Shown: positions 8,849 to 22,720 of the stretch, piece by piece
Layout of the letters: every line of letters starts with the position of its first letter
Position numbering within the stretch: the first letter of the stretch is position 1
Assembly: GCA_021802645.1 (NCBI GenBank)
Contig: JAJZRO010000010.1
Location: 1-64,000 of the forward strand
DNA: 64,000 nucleotides
Direction: 5' to 3'
From: Deltaproteobacteria bacterium
Lineage (GTDB): Bacteria; Desulfobacterota; Desulfobulbia; Desulfobulbales; Desulfurivibrionaceae
Position numbers and translations under genes: made by a program
Notes under the pieces: generated by a model
The model's input: only the letters and a program-made list of their open reading frames with translations
Database searches by the model: none
What the model was told of the DNA's origin: nothing

Positions 8849-10060
8849 ATGCCAATCTATCAGTGGAAGGGGGTTAACTCCTACGGCGAGAAGCGCAGCG
8901 GCAAGGTGGAGATGGCCAACGAGGCCATGGTCCAGGCGCATCTCAAGAAGATGCGCATCACGCCCTCGCTGATCAAGGAGGCCCCGCCGGACCTGCTCGC
9001 CAATATCGCCTTCATGAAGCCCAAGGTGACGGGCAAGGATGTGGTGATCTTCACCCGCCAGCTCTCCACCATGATCGATGCCGGCCTGCCCCTGGTGCAG
9101 AGCCTGGAGATCCTGAGCGATCAGCAGGAGAACGCCACCTTCAAGCAGATCCTGCGGGAGATCCGTTCCGACGTCGAGACCGGCACCACCTTTGCCGATG
9201 CCATGAAGAAGCACCCCACCGTCTTCGACAACCTTTACTGCAACATGGTGGAGGCCGGCGAATTGGGCGGTATCCTCGACACCATCCTGAATCGTCTGGC
9301 GGCCTTCATGGAAAAGAACATGGCGCTCAAGAAGAAGGTGAAGGGCGCCATGACTTACCCCATCATCTGTCTCTGCATTTCCTTCGTGGTGCTCGCGGTC
9401 ATGCTCATCTTCGTGGTGCCGGTCTTCCAGAAGATGTTCGCCGACTTCGGCTCCGCCCTGCCGGCGCCCACCCAGATGGTGGTGAACATGAGCGACTTTG
9501 CCAAACACAATTTCCATTTCATCATCGGCGCCATCATCGCCGCCATCTTTGCCATCAAAAAAGTGTACAAAACCGAAAAAGGACGTGAAAGGATTGACGA
9601 ACTTCTGTTAAAGATGCCTATCGTGGGTACCCTGCTGCGGCGGGTGGCGGTGGCCAAGTTCACCCGGACGCTCGGCACCATGCTCCAGAGCGGCGTGCCG
9701 ATTCTCGATTCCCTGAATGTCGTGGCGCGAACCTCCGGCAACAAGGTGGTGGAGAAGGCGGTCTTCCGGGTGACCGACAGCATCAGCGAAGGCCGCGCCA
9801 TTGCCGAGCCGCTGGCGGAAACCGGGGTCTTCCCCGGCATGGTGGTGCAGATGATCAATGTCGGCGAGGCGACCGGCGCCCTCGATGTCATGCTGACCAA
9901 GATCGCCGACTTCTACGACGAGGAGGTCGATCAGGCGGTGGAGAACCTCACCGCTGCCATCGAACCCTTGATGATGGTCTTCTTGGGCGGCATGATCGGC
10001 GGTCTGGTCGTTGCCATGTACCTGCCGATCTTCAGCATGGCAGGGGCCGTCGGCGGTTGA
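8849..10060 (+). CDS. pilC: type IV pilus / type II secretion inner-membrane platform protein
   Basis: A 403-residue GspF/PilC-family protein of normal length. After a short N-terminal cytoplasmic segment it has two GspF domains (about 65-190 and 270-395), each followed by hydrophobic spans: TYPIICLCISFVVLAVMLIF, a second span near 215-235, and the C-terminal LMMVFLGGMIGGLVVAMYLPI. PilC is the platform on which the PilB and PilT ATPases act. Neither these nor other pilus genes are in the window, so the gene is isolated here. That is unusual, because pilC normally follows pilB-pilT; the lower-GC patch just upstream may have split the locus. GAAGGAGA lies six bases before ATG 8849. Confidence 0.92.
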   Translation: MPIYQWKGVNSYGEKRSGKVEMANEAMVQAHLKKMRITPSLIKEAPPDLLANIAFMKPKVTGKDVVIFTRQLSTMIDAGLPLVQSLEILSDQQENATFKQILREIRSDVETGTTFADAMKKHPTVFDNLYCNMVEAGELGGILDTILNRLAAFMEKNMALKKKVKGAMTYPIICLCISFVVLAVMLIFVVPVFQKMFADFGSALPAPTQMVVNMSDFAKHNFHFIIGAIIAAIFAIKKVYKTEKGRERIDELLLKMPIVGTLLRRVAVAKFTRTLGTMLQSGVPILDSLNVVARTSGNKVVEKAVFRVTDSISEGRAIAEPLAETGVFPGMVVQMINVGEATGALDVMLTKIADFYDEEVDQAVENLTAAIEPLMMVFLGGMIGGLVVAMYLPIFSMAGAVGG

Positions 10061-18504: not shown

Positions 18505-18627
18505 GCCGGAAGGTCGCGTGAAAAAACCGCAAATCCCTTTGCGGCACGCGGTTGTTCTGGCATAATGAAAGAGGGTCCTGTCAGGCCCTCGGTCCGTCGC
18601 GTCCCCTTTTTGTCGGAGGAATCTCCC

Positions 18628-20808
18628 ATGCAACTGCCCATTACCCTGGAAGAGGCCATCACCGAGTGGGAACGCTTTGAGCAGTATCTGGTCCAGGCGC
18701 GCTATTCCGTGCGTGATCCCAAGGACGGCGCGCCGCTCGAAAAGGATTTGTCCCAGGTGCTCCTGCGGGTGAGCACGCAGTTTCGCCACCCCGAGGTGGC
18801 CAAGGCGCTCTTGCAGCAGCGCTTCATCACCGCCACCCCCTTCCTGATGAACGGCGGCAACCCCCATACCGACCGCTGCGGCTATTATTCCTGCTACCCG
18901 CTGGGCGACGTGGAGGACTCCACCGACGCCATCTTCGCCATGGAGCGTGATCTGGTCGCCATCTTCCAGCACGCGGGCGGCGGCGGCATCGATGTCTCGA
19001 AAATCCGGCCCAAGGGCGCCATGGTGGACAACGGCCAGGGCGTCGCTTCCGGACCGGTTTCTTTTGCCAAGGGTTTTTCCCAGCTCTCGGCCCGGGTCAG
19101 CCAGGGCGGCAAGCGGCGCGGCGCCTTGATGATCCAGGCGGACTGGAACATCAAGGACATCAAGGAGTTCATCACCTTCAAGGGCGATGATCCGGGCAAG
19201 TACAGCGGCTGCAACGTCTCGATCAACGTGACCAACGAGGCCTTCTGGGACAACGAGGAACTGCTCAGGCTCATTGCGCAGTACATCTGGAAATCCGGCG
19301 ATCCGGGGCTGCTCTTCACCGAAAAGAGCCTGGCCAATACGCCGGTGCCGGCCCGCTTCAATCCGGTCTTTTCCAACCCCTGCGGCGAATATCTCTCCAC
19401 CAAGGATACCGCCTGCAACCTGCTCACCATCTCGCTGCCCAAGTGTCTGGCCAAAAAACAGGAAGAGTACCTGGCCAATGTGTTCGAGACCGCCCGGCTG
19501 GCCGCCATGGCCGGCAACGAGGTGCTCGACCTCGGCGGCTTCCCGCCCATCGAGCGGATCAGGAAGAATACCCTCAGGTTCCGGCCCATCGGCATCGGCT
19601 TCACCGGTCTGCACCAGGCGATGAACCATTTCGGAGTTTCCTACGCCGACGAGCATCTGGCGCCGCTCTTTGCCAAGGCCACCCAGCTGGCCCTGATGCT
19701 CGGCTCCATGCAGGGCAGCCTTGATTACGCCGAGTTCGCCATGGCCGCGGGCGGCGAGAAGCTTAAGCCCCGGGAGTGGAATCCGGAGTATGTGGCAAAG
19801 ATCGAGAGCGAGGCGCTCTCCTTCATCCAGACCGGCATGCCGGCCAAGAAGGCGTGGACCAAACAGGCGAAGAATCTCTTTGCCACGGTGAAGAAGCTGG
19901 GCGGCCTCTACAACTCGGTGACCACCTCCCAGGCGCCCACCGGCTCCATCTCCCAGTTGCTGCGCATCGCCTGCACCGGGGTGGAGCCGTATTTCTCCAT
20001 GGTCCAGAGTCGCAAGGTCAAGGATGTGGACGACTCCTGGAAGGAGTTCACCCTGGTGCCGCTGGAGTTCTACTCCTACGACGAGAAGCAGCTCGACGAG
20101 GTGGCGCGGCAGACTGCCCACCTGATCGAACCCTATCAGCAGATCCGCATCCTGGAGGCCTGCCAGGCCTTCAACCATACGGCAGTCTCCAAGACCATCA
20201 ACCTGCCGGCCGAGACCACGGTGGAGGAGATCGGCAAGATCCTCCAGTATGCCCGCCAGAGCAACCTGAAGGGCATCACCATGTTTCGCGATTCCTCCAT
20301 GGAGGCGGTGTTGCGCGACGGCATCCGGCGGCCGGAAGGCGCCAGCGACTTCAGCGATCTCGATGAACGGCGCGGCAGCACCTTCAAGTTCCGGGGGCCG
20401 GCGCCGCTCTACGTCACCGCCAACCGCGGCAAGAACGGCCACGTGCGCGAGGTCTTCCTCAATACCACCAAGTCGGGCTCCACCCTCCACGGCATGAGTG
20501 AGGCCTTGGGCCGGGTGATCTCGGTCGCCCTCCAGCACGATTATCGGCTGGTCGGCAAGCTCGCCCGGACCCTGGAGGATATCTCCTCGGACGGCGCCTG
20601 GCACAACGGCTTACTCGGCCGGGTCTATTCGATCCCGGCCGCCTTGGCCAAGGTGCTCGACAACTGTGCGGCCGACGACGCCGACAGCAATCCCGAGCCC
20701 TACGAAGAGCCGTCCTCCTATGCCTCCTGTCCGGCCTGCGGCCACCTTACCCTGCGGCGCAGCGGCGGCTGCAGCCTGTGCGAGAGCTGCGGTTATTCGA
20801 CCTGCTAG
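18628..20808 (+). CDS. nrdJ: adenosylcobalamin-dependent ribonucleotide reductase (class II)
   Basis: A 726-residue class II reductase, oxygen-independent and using coenzyme B12 as radical source. Seen: the substrate-site segment FLMNGGNPHTDRCGYYSCYPL, the radical/catalytic loop NPCGEYLST, the phosphate-binding APTGSISQLL, and a C-terminal tail with two Cys-x2-Cys pairs (CPACG, CESCG) typical of NrdJ tails that re-reduce the active site. ATG 18628 has CGGAGGA upstream; the earlier in-frame ATG at 18565 has none. A small hairpin (18570-18589) lies in the leader. I looked for a B12 riboswitch, which often controls nrdJ, but the 123-base gap is too short and shows no B12-box. A sole B12-dependent enzyme fits an anaerobe. 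Confidence 0.95.
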   Translation: MQLPITLEEAITEWERFEQYLVQARYSVRDPKDGAPLEKDLSQVLLRVSTQFRHPEVAKALLQQRFITATPFLMNGGNPHTDRCGYYSCYPLGDVEDSTDAIFAMERDLVAIFQHAGGGGIDVSKIRPKGAMVDNGQGVASGPVSFAKGFSQLSARVSQGGKRRGALMIQADWNIKDIKEFITFKGDDPGKYSGCNVSINVTNEAFWDNEELLRLIAQYIWKSGDPGLLFTEKSLANTPVPARFNPVFSNPCGEYLSTKDTACNLLTISLPKCLAKKQEEYLANVFETARLAAMAGNEVLDLGGFPPIERIRKNTLRFRPIGIGFTGLHQAMNHFGVSYADEHLAPLFAKATQLALMLGSMQGSLDYAEFAMAAGGEKLKPREWNPEYVAKIESEALSFIQTGMPAKKAWTKQAKNLFATVKKLGGLYNSVTTSQAPTGSISQLLRIACTGVEPYFSMVQSRKVKDVDDSWKEFTLVPLEFYSYDEKQLDEVARQTAHLIEPYQQIRILEACQAFNHTAVSKTINLPAETTVEEIGKILQYARQSNLKGITMFRDSSMEAVLRDGIRRPEGASDFSDLDERRGSTFKFRGPAPLYVTANRGKNGHVREVFLNTTKSGSTLHGMSEALGRVISVALQHDYRLVGKLARTLEDISSDGAWHNGLLGRVYSIPAALAKVLDNCAADDADSNPEPYEEPSSYASCPACGHLTLRRSGGCSLCESCGYSTC

Positions 20809-20844: not shown

Positions 20845-21201
20845 CTAGCAGCACTCTTCCAGGAGGTAGTGTTTCCCGTCCACGCTGACGAAATGAACGC
20901 CGCTGAGTTTCGGCAGCCCGGCGATTTTCCACGCCTTTTCCGGGTTGATGAATTCCTCGCTGACGCATTCCCGTGGTTGATGGATGTTCTTGCAGACGTA
21001 ATTTAAGATCGGAAACGCCTGGTACTTTTTGTAATACGCCCGCAGGAAGCGCAGGATTTCCAGCATCTCCTCAGTCAAGGCAGGGACACCCTCCCGTTCG
21101 GCCAACATCCGGGCAATGTTCTCATCCCATGTTTCCGGGTCCGTCAGAAAGCCGTCGGCATCGATTTGCGGTTTATGTGCGGCGCATTCAGGTCCAGCCA
21201 T
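20845..21201 (-). CDS. DsrC/TusE-family protein lacking the canonical C-terminal cysteines
   Basis: A 118-residue protein that follows the DsrC/TusE fold closely: DADGFLTDPETWDENIA, ALTEEMLEILRFLRAYYKKY, and a C-terminal arm WKIAGLPKLSG. True DsrC ends GACKxAGLPKPTGCV, with two redox cysteines that carry the trisulfide. Here the first is replaced by Trp (AWKIAGL) and the second is absent (SGVHF). The protein instead has a longer tail ending in Cys-Cys, plus Cys at 6 and two near residues 69 and 79. It may be a regulatory or alternative sulfur carrier rather than a sulfite-reductase partner. Start ATG 21201 is chosen for AGGAGG six bases upstream. It is last in a minus-strand run after the desulfoferrodoxin remnant. 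Confidence 0.85.
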   Translation of the reverse strand: MAGPECAAHKPQIDADGFLTDPETWDENIARMLAEREGVPALTEEMLEILRFLRAYYKKYQAFPILNYVCKNIHQPRECVSEEFINPEKAWKIAGLPKLSGVHFVSVDGKHYLLEECC

Positions 21202-21295: not shown

Positions 21296-21303
21296 ATCGG
21301 CGT

Positions 21304-21695
21304 CTAGCGAGTAGCGATTGCCTTGGAGTTTTCCCAGAAACCATGAAGGTTGCAGAACGATGCCGCGAGAAGCGTGTCGGGCTGAGTCCTTCTGGGCGTG
21401 GTGGTGACGGCGTGATGGGTATGGATCGGCCCGGTGTTTGGCCCCGGCAGAGATTCACCGTGGGCGGTGAATTCGAAGTTGCCGACTGGTAACAGAAATT
21501 GTCTCCTGTCGGTTGGCAAAGCAGCCGGATCCATCTGATCTGGTGTTCCGTGGCGTTCGGACGGGCTGGTCCCTTGCCCACCGAGAGGGTTGCCGCGAAC
21601 CATTCGCCCGTGCCAACAGCATCCGGGCAGTCGATTACCGGCCCGTGCTTTTCGGCCTTCCAGTCGGCCACTTGGAAGATGGTCCCTCGATTCAT
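21304..21695 (-). pseudogene. desulfoferrodoxin-family superoxide reductase gene with a frameshift
   Basis: From ATG 21695 (AGGAGGG seven bases upstream) the frame reads GTIFQVADWKAEKHGPVIDCPD and TEHQIRWIRLL, as in the iron centre II domain of desulfoferrodoxin. It then loses similarity at GDNFCYQ. From that point the next frame continues VGNFEFTAHGESLPGPNTGP, THHAVTTT and SFCNLHGFW to a stop at 21304. One missing G near 21486 (CAGGTC expected, CAGTC present) explains both halves. Across the two frames the Fe ligands (His in EKH, TEHQ and AHGE; Cys and His in CNLH) and the Glu-Lys loop are all kept. The repaired protein would be about 130 residues, without a desulforedoxin domain, and would reduce superoxide to peroxide. 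It is either a recent mutation or a sequencing error. Confidence 0.82.
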
Positions 21696-21816: not shown

Positions 21817-22113
21817 TCAGGGCCGGATGCTCTGGTAGCGGGCATAAAGCCCCTTCACCCGCTCGCGGAGCCTCCGGATACCCTGGGTGTCCTCCTTGGT
21901 AAGCCAACGGGGTTCGCTGATGGAGTAAATACATTTGTGCAGTTCATCGATAACGCCTTCGGTGGCGTTGCACCATTCGTCCGTGCAGAGGGAGGACATC
22001 GCCGCGGCCTCGTCGATGTCCTTTTCCAGGAGATCAAGCGCTTTTTCGAGACTGCTCATGAACTCCAGGTGGGCCATCCGCATGGTGTTTTCCATCTCGG
22101 TCTGTCGCTGCAT
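21817..22113 (-). CDS. small helical protein of unknown function (second of a pair)
   Basis: A 98-residue hydrophilic protein, mostly long amphipathic helices (AHLEFMSSLEKALDLLEKDIDEAAAM and DTQGIRRLRERVKGLYARYQS). The central segment LCTDEWCNATEGVIDELHKCIYSISEPRW has three Cys and looks like its conserved core. There is no signal peptide or membrane span. I do not know the function. It has AGGAGGA nine bases before ATG 22113. It stands between another small helical protein and the desulfoferrodoxin gene, which suggests a part in oxygen or redox response in an anaerobe. A start at Met7 is possible but lacks its own ribosome site. Confidence 0.75.
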   Translation of the reverse strand: MQRQTEMENTMRMAHLEFMSSLEKALDLLEKDIDEAAAMSSLCTDEWCNATEGVIDELHKCIYSISEPRWLTKEDTQGIRRLRERVKGLYARYQSIRP

Positions 22114-22185: not shown

Positions 22186-22488
22186 TCAGCCGCCGATGTC
22201 GTAGTCGAAAAGGGCCTTCTCCACCTTGTTGTATTCGTCGCCCAGATCGCCGAGTTTGCCTTTCAGGGCCTCCCGCTCGGGTGCCCATTCGGTAGGGCAG
22301 GCCGTCCGCAGGCTATCAAGGCGGTCGTCAAGTTCCGTCATGATGATGTGCAGACCGTTTACCTTTTCGTACATCCGCTGCTTGTCTCCGGTGGGCAATT
22401 GCTCTATCTGCCGAATGACATTGTAGAGTTTGGCCTTCCAGGCGGTAAGTTCCGTGTCGATGTTACGGCAATAATCCTTGAGTTCCAT
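22186..22488 (-). CDS. small helical protein of unknown function (first of a pair)
   Basis: A 100-residue soluble protein of two or three amphipathic helices: YCRNIDTELTAWKAKLYNVIRQ, KVNGLHIIMTELDDRLDSLR and EALKGKLGDLGDEYNKVEKAL. Cys7 and Cys64 are the only cysteines, the latter in CPTEW; the next gene has a similar-looking CTDEWC. The two may interact or descend from a common helical hairpin, but I cannot show homology. AGGAGGG stands four bases before the ATG. It is the first full gene after a promoter, leader ORF and attenuator-like hairpin. The gap to the second gene is 72 bases. Function unknown. Confidence 0.75.
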   Translation of the reverse strand: MELKDYCRNIDTELTAWKAKLYNVIRQIEQLPTGDKQRMYEKVNGLHIIMTELDDRLDSLRTACPTEWAPEREALKGKLGDLGDEYNKVEKALFDYDIGG

Positions 22489-22519: not shown

Positions 22520-22542
22520 GCCCGTCAACCAGGGTGACGGGC
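22520..22542. repeat. second leader hairpin before the small-protein operon
   Basis: GCCCGTCA (22520-22527) and TGACGGGC (22535-22542) are perfect 8-base arms with a 7-base loop, without a T-run. It lies between the attenuator-like terminator and the first gene of the operon, and could act in an alternative leader fold. Confidence 0.5.
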
Positions 22543-22579: not shown

Positions 22580-22622
22580 AAAAAAGACGAAACCCTCCGC
22601 CGGATGGCTAATCCGTGGAGGG
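22580..22622 (-). terminator. attenuator-like terminator in the leader of the small-protein operon
   Basis: Read on the minus strand: CCCTCC, A, CGGAT, five-base loop TAGCC, ATCCG, GC, GGAGGG, then TTTCGTCTTTTTT. Eleven base pairs with a small internal loop and an interrupted T-run. It stands after a consensus promoter and before the first structural gene. The stop codon of the leader ORF lies in its loop, so a ribosome there would cover the 5' arm. Confidence 0.65.
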
Positions 22623-22655
22623 CTCTTTGGGTAGCGTGAGAACAACTTCGTACAT
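22608..22655 (-). CDS. putative 15-residue leader peptide
   Basis: ATG 22655 opens a 15-codon frame (MYEVVLTLPKEPSTD) ending in TAG. GGAG stands seven bases upstream, and the start lies about 30 bases after the predicted transcription start. Its last four sense codons form the 5' arm of the terminator hairpin and the stop codon lies in the loop. This is the geometry of a translation-controlled attenuator. The codon content gives no obvious amino-acid sensor, unlike trp or his leaders. It could instead be the truncated start of a deleted gene. No homologue is known to me. Confidence 0.4.
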   Translation of the reverse strand: MYEVVLTLPKEPSTD

Positions 22656-22691
22656 GGAGGGTCTCCGTTGTTGAAGTTGCTGTTAGAAATA

Positions 22692-22720
22692 ATGATAGAT
22701 GGCCCTTGTTTCTTTGTCAA
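22692..22720 (-). promoter_or_regulatory. consensus sigma-70 promoter of the small-protein/desulfoferrodoxin/DsrC-like operon
   Basis: On the minus strand TTGACA (22720-22715) and TATCAT (22697-22692) are separated by exactly 17 bases. It is the best promoter match upstream of the operon and puts the start of transcription near 22685, giving a leader of about 200 bases before the first full gene. Confidence 0.7.

Follow-up and report, generated by a model that had tools for sequence, protein, structure and literature searches.

Upstream of a minus-strand gene cluster in the window (the whole 64,000-nucleotide stretch of DNA analysed here), a short reading frame sits between a promoter and a terminator-like hairpin, which raises the question of whether this leader regulates the genes that follow and, if so, how. 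As a rule, a leader-peptide attenuator acts at a single locus and responds to the product or drug that it senses. Judged by comparative sequence analysis, the window element is a real, conserved regulatory element; we put at about 0.75 the probability that it belongs to a conserved family of cis-acting translational attenuators present at many loci, in which a ribosome bound at the leader stop would block the terminator.

Architecture of the window leader

The initial annotation described a promoter, a ribosome site, a 15-codon frame and a hairpin with a T-run, all of which were confirmed on the minus strand. The features of the leader are as follows.

22692..22720, minus strand: sigma-70-type promoter TTGACA-17-TATCAT (read from the sequence and from recurrence in the family)
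22641..22681, minus strand: 5' hairpin AGCAACTTC.../...GAAGTTGTT, enclosing the ribosome site and start codon, with an inner GGAG/CTCC hairpin (RNA fold)
22663..22666, minus strand: Shine-Dalgarno sequence GGAG of the leader ORF
22608..22655, minus strand: leader ORF MYEVVLTLPKEPSTD-stop, whose MYEVVLTLP aligns with the family sequence MKEVVLKLP(I)-stop
22590..22625, minus strand: terminator hairpin, overlapping the 3' end of the leader ORF (sequence, fold and family covariation)
22580..22585, minus strand: T6 run of the terminator
22520..22542, minus strand: second perfect 8-bp hairpin GCCCGTCA/TGACGGGC, without a T-run

The promoter boxes, TTGACA at 22720-22715 and TATCAT at 22697-22692 with a 17-nt spacer between them, score 11/12, and promoter-like sites of at least 9/12 occur twice in 3 kb, compared with 0.8 expected from shuffles. 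The ORF extends from ATG (22655-22653) over 15 sense codons to TAG (22610-22608) within the terminator loop. Pairing of the terminator arms at 22625-22617 and 22598-22590 (GAGCCCTCC and GGAGGGTTT), together with an inner CGGAT/ATCCG, yields 11 Watson-Crick pairs plus flanking G-U/A-U pairs, followed by T6.

Folding of the 109-nt leader gave a predicted energy of -36 kcal/mol (z -4.3), with 0 of 200 shuffles as stable, and resolved the RNA into two hairpins, the terminator and the 5' hairpin (22681-22641). The latter, which covers the ribosome site, was absent from the initial annotation and was revealed by the fold. The second perfect 8-bp hairpin reported ahead of the first gene is indeed present (arms 22542-22535 and 22527-22520, minus strand), but no counterpart was found in relatives. 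An Rfam scan of the window returned nothing in the leader, with no leader-family match at E<=5, and showed the c-di-GMP-I-GGC aptamer (RF03167) to be absent.

A family of related leaders

BLASTN searches of the leader against 38 and 258 genomes gave only scattered matches of 17-45 nt and no true homologue; the ten matches inspected were all in unrelated sequence. A covariance model built from the window leader alone produced only sub-significant matches, two of which (G048:C31 and G231:C232) later turned out to be real. The route to the family was reading the DNA upstream of orthologues of the window's first gene. In an uncultured Desulfobulbaceae bacterium (L033) this DNA contains ATG-AAA-AAG-GTT-GTG-TTG-AAA-CTA-CCA-ATT-TAG, encoding MKKVVLKLPI-stop, and in a Desulfocapsa MAG (L037) it contains ATG-AAC-GAA-GTT-ATC-CTA-AAG-CTA-CTT-TTA-TAA, encoding MNEVILKLLL-stop. 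Directly 3' of both stops lies a terminator of the GCCTCC...GGAGGC or GCCTCC...GGGGGC type. Independently of the orthologue route, the L037 leader was the sole match of the window-only covariance model in 224 kb.

A two-sequence model comprising the window and L033, with one L033 base omitted to hold the arms in register, matched in 18 of 253 order genomes, many times at E-values of 1e-5 to 1e-16. After iteration to 20 sequences, the model matched 51 of 258 class/order genomes at E<=0.1; below 1e-4 there were 53 matches, spread over 22 genomes. The highest copy number was 13, in a genome of 4.0 Mb. In the phylum sample, 36 of 395 genomes carry the element (E<=0.01), several of them with 8-10 copies and one single-contig genome with 4; these copy numbers are approximate, because the E-values rest on a short calibration, many genomes are fragmented MAGs and several multi-copy phylum genomes have 5-9% contamination. 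Among 27 genomes of the window's own family, a strong copy was found in the window only. A pattern match on a viral contig (L232), next to or inside phage genes, was rejected as chance.

The element thus belongs to a family with dozens of members in sulfate-reducer-type bacteria, one that is apparently undescribed. No Rfam 15 family covers it in the window or the relatives scanned, where the only leader-family match was a sub-gathering His_leader on the wrong strand of L191. We found no paper describing it in a search that spanned open-licence papers, and an earlier description elsewhere is possible. Within these sources, the original statement that no known leader family matches still holds.

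The leader ORF is conserved as a peptide

In an alignment of 107 distinct elements, the aligned start codon is ATG in 83 and GTG or TTG in 12, figures which, like the other ORF statistics, carry some ascertainment bias in later matches because the models were built from elements with a leader ORF. An in-frame stop begins no more than 6 nt from the terminator arm in 69 of the 107, at exactly one position in 54, as against 1 and 7 for the other frames. An SD-like 4-mer is present at -17 to -3 in 80 of 106 members, compared with 7.7 +/- 2.5 in shuffles. A canonical start and the arm-proximal stop are both present in 61 elements, 51 of which encode exactly 10 residues.

The peptide consensus is about M-K-E-V-x-L-K-(M/V/L)-P-(I), with variants such as MKEVILKMPI, MRRSFRKVPI and MKWIFQKMPI, in which K-x-P-(I) is kept at the C-terminal end. 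In the phylum set, the information at codon positions 1/2/3 is 1.82/1.63/0.19 bits for Pro9 and 2.00/1.82/1.15 bits for Lys7. By this sequence comparison the ORF is evolving as coding DNA, its amino acids being kept while third positions drift. The codon-position signature and the ribosome sites are those of a translated leader, and the intrinsic terminator abutting or overlapping the ORF before the regulated gene likewise places the element in the general class of ribosome-mediated transcription attenuators. As the initial annotation remarked of the window peptide, no single amino acid dominates: the consensus contains no repeated codon and hence no run for a sensed amino acid of the trp/his/leu type.

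The position of the stop within the hairpin loop, as first described, applies to the window but is not the family norm, in which the stop lies right at the base of the terminator 5' arm. Relative to L033, an indel has removed the normal stop position, so that translation of the window leader would run through the 5' arm to the loop stop. About a third of the aligned members do not have the stop at the arm, and a few are without a canonical start, which suggests that some are decayed, truncated or differently wired. In L095, L103, L176 and L192, ATT or ATC occupies the aligned start while peptide and stop are otherwise intact; these may be either non-canonical starts or decaying copies.

Conservation of the terminator, promoter and 5' hairpin

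Covariation of the terminator arms was scored over 62 and 48 distinct members. Cells with both sides changed numbered 69 compared with 17 in shuffles for the order set and 42 compared with 9 for the phylum set, no shuffle being as high in either case. Sigma-70-like promoters scoring at least 10/12 occur upstream in 21 of 105 members, as against 2 of 105 when shuffled, and many members have a TTGACA-type site 65-108 nt before the start codon. Most members are predicted to form a 5' hairpin over the ribosome site; its own-versus-swapped pairing is supported in the phylum set (1/5000) and gave no significant signal in the order set. When the ribosome site was instead paired with the 5' arm of the terminator, own-versus-swapped comparison gave no signal, and no conserved antiterminator was found in this way.

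Across relatives, then, many loci share the promoter, SD, ORF, stop-to-terminator distance and terminator, and the remainder of the leader drifts; together with the codon-level signature of the ORF, this pattern strongly supports the attenuator reading originally proposed for this site.

Genes downstream of the elements

In the window, the leader is followed by an oxygen-defence operon.

22186..22488, minus strand: first gene, 100-aa helical protein with weak, below cut-off similarity to the sll1863 stress-response family
21817..22113, minus strand: second gene, 98-aa protein of unknown function, conserved in the family
21300..21695, minus strand: neelaredoxin-type superoxide reductase (Desulfoferrodox) in two frames, with a break near 21485
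20845..21201, minus strand: DsrC/TusE-like sulfur-relay protein

The upstream neighbour is a histidine kinase gene on the plus strand (23290 onward), divergent from the leader, and the window terminator therefore serves no upstream minus-strand gene. Over the family, 91 of 105 loci have a co-directional next gene, usually 30-250 nt away, the automatic next-gene calls being wrong at a few loci including the window. This placement is evidence independent of the covariance models.

The targets are mixed. They include a Fur-type regulator (two genomes), multihaem cytochromes, the superoxide-reductase operon, radical-SAM/B12 proteins (four genomes), nucleotide cyclases, PAS/histidine-kinase proteins, acyl-CoA dehydrogenase, PAP2, GYD and many exported or membrane proteins, and some oxygen-stress genes recur among them. 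A redox state had been suggested as one possible trigger. Considering that the downstream genes have so many unrelated functions, this suggestion is unsupported, and a redox-specific attenuator was rejected in view of the unrelated targets that the family has in addition to KatG/Fur, cytochromes and superoxide reductase. No amino-acid biosynthesis genes were noted downstream of the elements.

At L101/L119 and L168, in two genomes, the element precedes the gene for the Fur-type regulator, which at L119 is followed by a catalase-peroxidase (KatG) gene. At L085, L090, L122 and L183 it precedes the same radical-SAM/B12-binding (DUF4070) gene, and these four make a good set for following the evolution of one copy.

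Proposed mechanism and comparison with known systems

Sequence comparison establishes that the family exists and is conserved at the level of translation, that the stop keeps its spacing from the terminator, that the terminator covaries and that the next genes are mostly co-directional. In the mechanism that we propose, transcription would start at the dedicated promoter, and a ribosome would bind GGAG and translate the peptide of about 10 codons, ending at the base of the intrinsic terminator hairpin or, in the window, inside it. A ribosome at the leader stop would sterically block the terminator 5' arm, allowing RNA polymerase to read into the downstream gene. With no ribosome at the stop, due either to folding of the ribosome site in the 5' hairpin or to rapid release, the terminator would form and yield an RNA of roughly 105 nt. 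From the stop abutting the 5' arm and the conserved C-terminal K-x-P-(I), both of which match the precedent class, we infer the direction of the switch, such that translation would give readthrough (ON) and its absence termination. In the window, a ribosome at the loop stop would still lie over the 5' arm, and readthrough is predicted there too. That the nascent K-x-P-(I) C-terminus slows release is speculative; proline among the last three residues in 47 of the 61 intact ORFs hints at stop-codon arrest and is suggestive only.

Three precedents bear on this mechanism. In synthetic tR2 constructs in E. coli, moving the stop from 28 to 5 bp before the terminator brought termination down from ~90% to <10%, a repression that was lost once translation was uncoupled (PMC4824070); a terminator a few bp past a stop was repressed by the translating ribosome with distance being critical, as would apply here, although these constructs are engineered, with full-length genes, and not a natural regulatory family. 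The macrolide-inducible transcriptional attenuator of the streptococcal mefA/msrD operon has a very short leader peptide (MsrDL, MYLIFM) whose stop likewise lies beside an intrinsic terminator; ribosomes stalled at the stop of this 6-residue leader block the hairpin and cause readthrough, an antiterminator being unneeded (PMC10314930). It differs in having one locus, an antibiotic trigger and an unrelated peptide, whereas the new family has many loci per genome, heterogeneous targets and a 5' hairpin over the ribosome site. In the tnaC leader of the E. coli tryptophanase operon, arrest occurs at termination, when the P site contains the C-terminal Pro24 and the A site the stop, and leads to antitermination (PMC8429421), a likeness to the action proposed for the family. 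However, tnaC prevents Rho termination and senses tryptophan via residues such as Trp12, while the family has an intrinsic terminator and a 10-aa peptide with no Trp in its consensus; compared by eye, the two peptides have only the proline near the C-terminus in common. The bmrB leader of Bacillus subtilis bmrCD (PMC4191407) also uses a leader ORF and terminator for ribosome-mediated transcription attenuation but is single-locus and drug-responsive, with an unrelated peptide.

Alternative explanations

One alternative, unlikely but the strongest of them, is an independent small RNA, or a gene for a tiny peptide, that carries its own promoter and terminator, acts in trans and happens to lie ahead of other genes. 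It would account for the self-contained promoter-terminator unit, the strongly folded 5' hairpin, the presence of up to 13 copies per genome and the CCTCC/CCTTC motifs, which could base-pair with ribosome sites. However, co-directional next genes at 91 of 105 loci, mostly within 250 nt, go far beyond what action in trans needs, and further arguments against it are that half of the members keep the stop-to-terminator spacing exact to the nucleotide and that copies occur at unrelated loci. An improbable reading makes the leader ancillary to a c-di-GMP riboswitch in tandem sensing, the window copy being a relic after riboswitch loss. RF03167 does lie directly 3' of the leader terminator in L033 (3439-3517), L037 (7738-7812) and L086 (1406-1480), and the window copy is without the riboswitch present in its closest counterparts; but these are the only three of the Rfam-scanned loci with a riboswitch, and ORF and terminator are conserved without it.

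Classical amino-acid-sensing attenuation, in which the ribosome stalls at repeated regulatory codons and terminator and antiterminator exchange, would explain why leader ORF and terminator are present, yet it is very improbable given the lack of a repeated codon, of amino-acid biosynthesis targets and of a conserved antiterminator in the own-versus-swapped comparison. We give least credence to the ORF being what is left of the start of a deleted gene, or a frame that arose by chance over an ordinary terminator. The lack of a DNA-level BLASTN match in relatives and the non-conserved stop position in the window would fit such an origin, but the recurrence of the same peptide, together with its ribosome site and terminator, at many unrelated loci and with drifting third codon positions speaks against it, and a remnant of a deleted gene, the counter-explanation named at the outset, is contradicted by the existence of the family.

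A possible regulon based on one peptide

Beyond the multi-locus attenuator itself, we tentatively suggest, as a possibility rather than an expectation, that one conserved 10-residue peptide serves as a device controlling many genes genome-wide in Desulfobacterota, with K-x-P-I-stop abutting a terminator as a shared sensor of arrest or termination rate, so that a single translational signal would govern as many as about a dozen unrelated genes in a genome. If so, the signal could be release-factor activity, ribosome availability or a small molecule, and the regulon would be defined by its leader peptide, not by a transcription factor or riboswitch. Such reuse of a peptide-plus-terminator cassette would represent new regulon wiring, in environmentally important anaerobic sulfur-cycle bacteria whose RNA regulation is little known. 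The family makes testable whether nascent K-x-P-(I) itself keeps the ribosome at the stop, and what would then free it.

Further observations

At L033, L037 and L086 the leader and the riboswitch place two terminators in series, which possibly forms an AND gate of translation and c-di-GMP. In the window, the N-terminal and C-terminal halves of the superoxide reductase (21300-21695) each match Desulfoferrodox in two overlapping frames, indicating either that the gene is frameshifted near 21485 or an assembly error. The L037 counterpart (9023-9349) also looks degraded, while the part present in L033 is intact. On the plus strand, 18565-20808 encodes a class II (B12-dependent) ribonucleotide reductase that falls below the curated cut-off of all NCBIfam models and is a divergent form.
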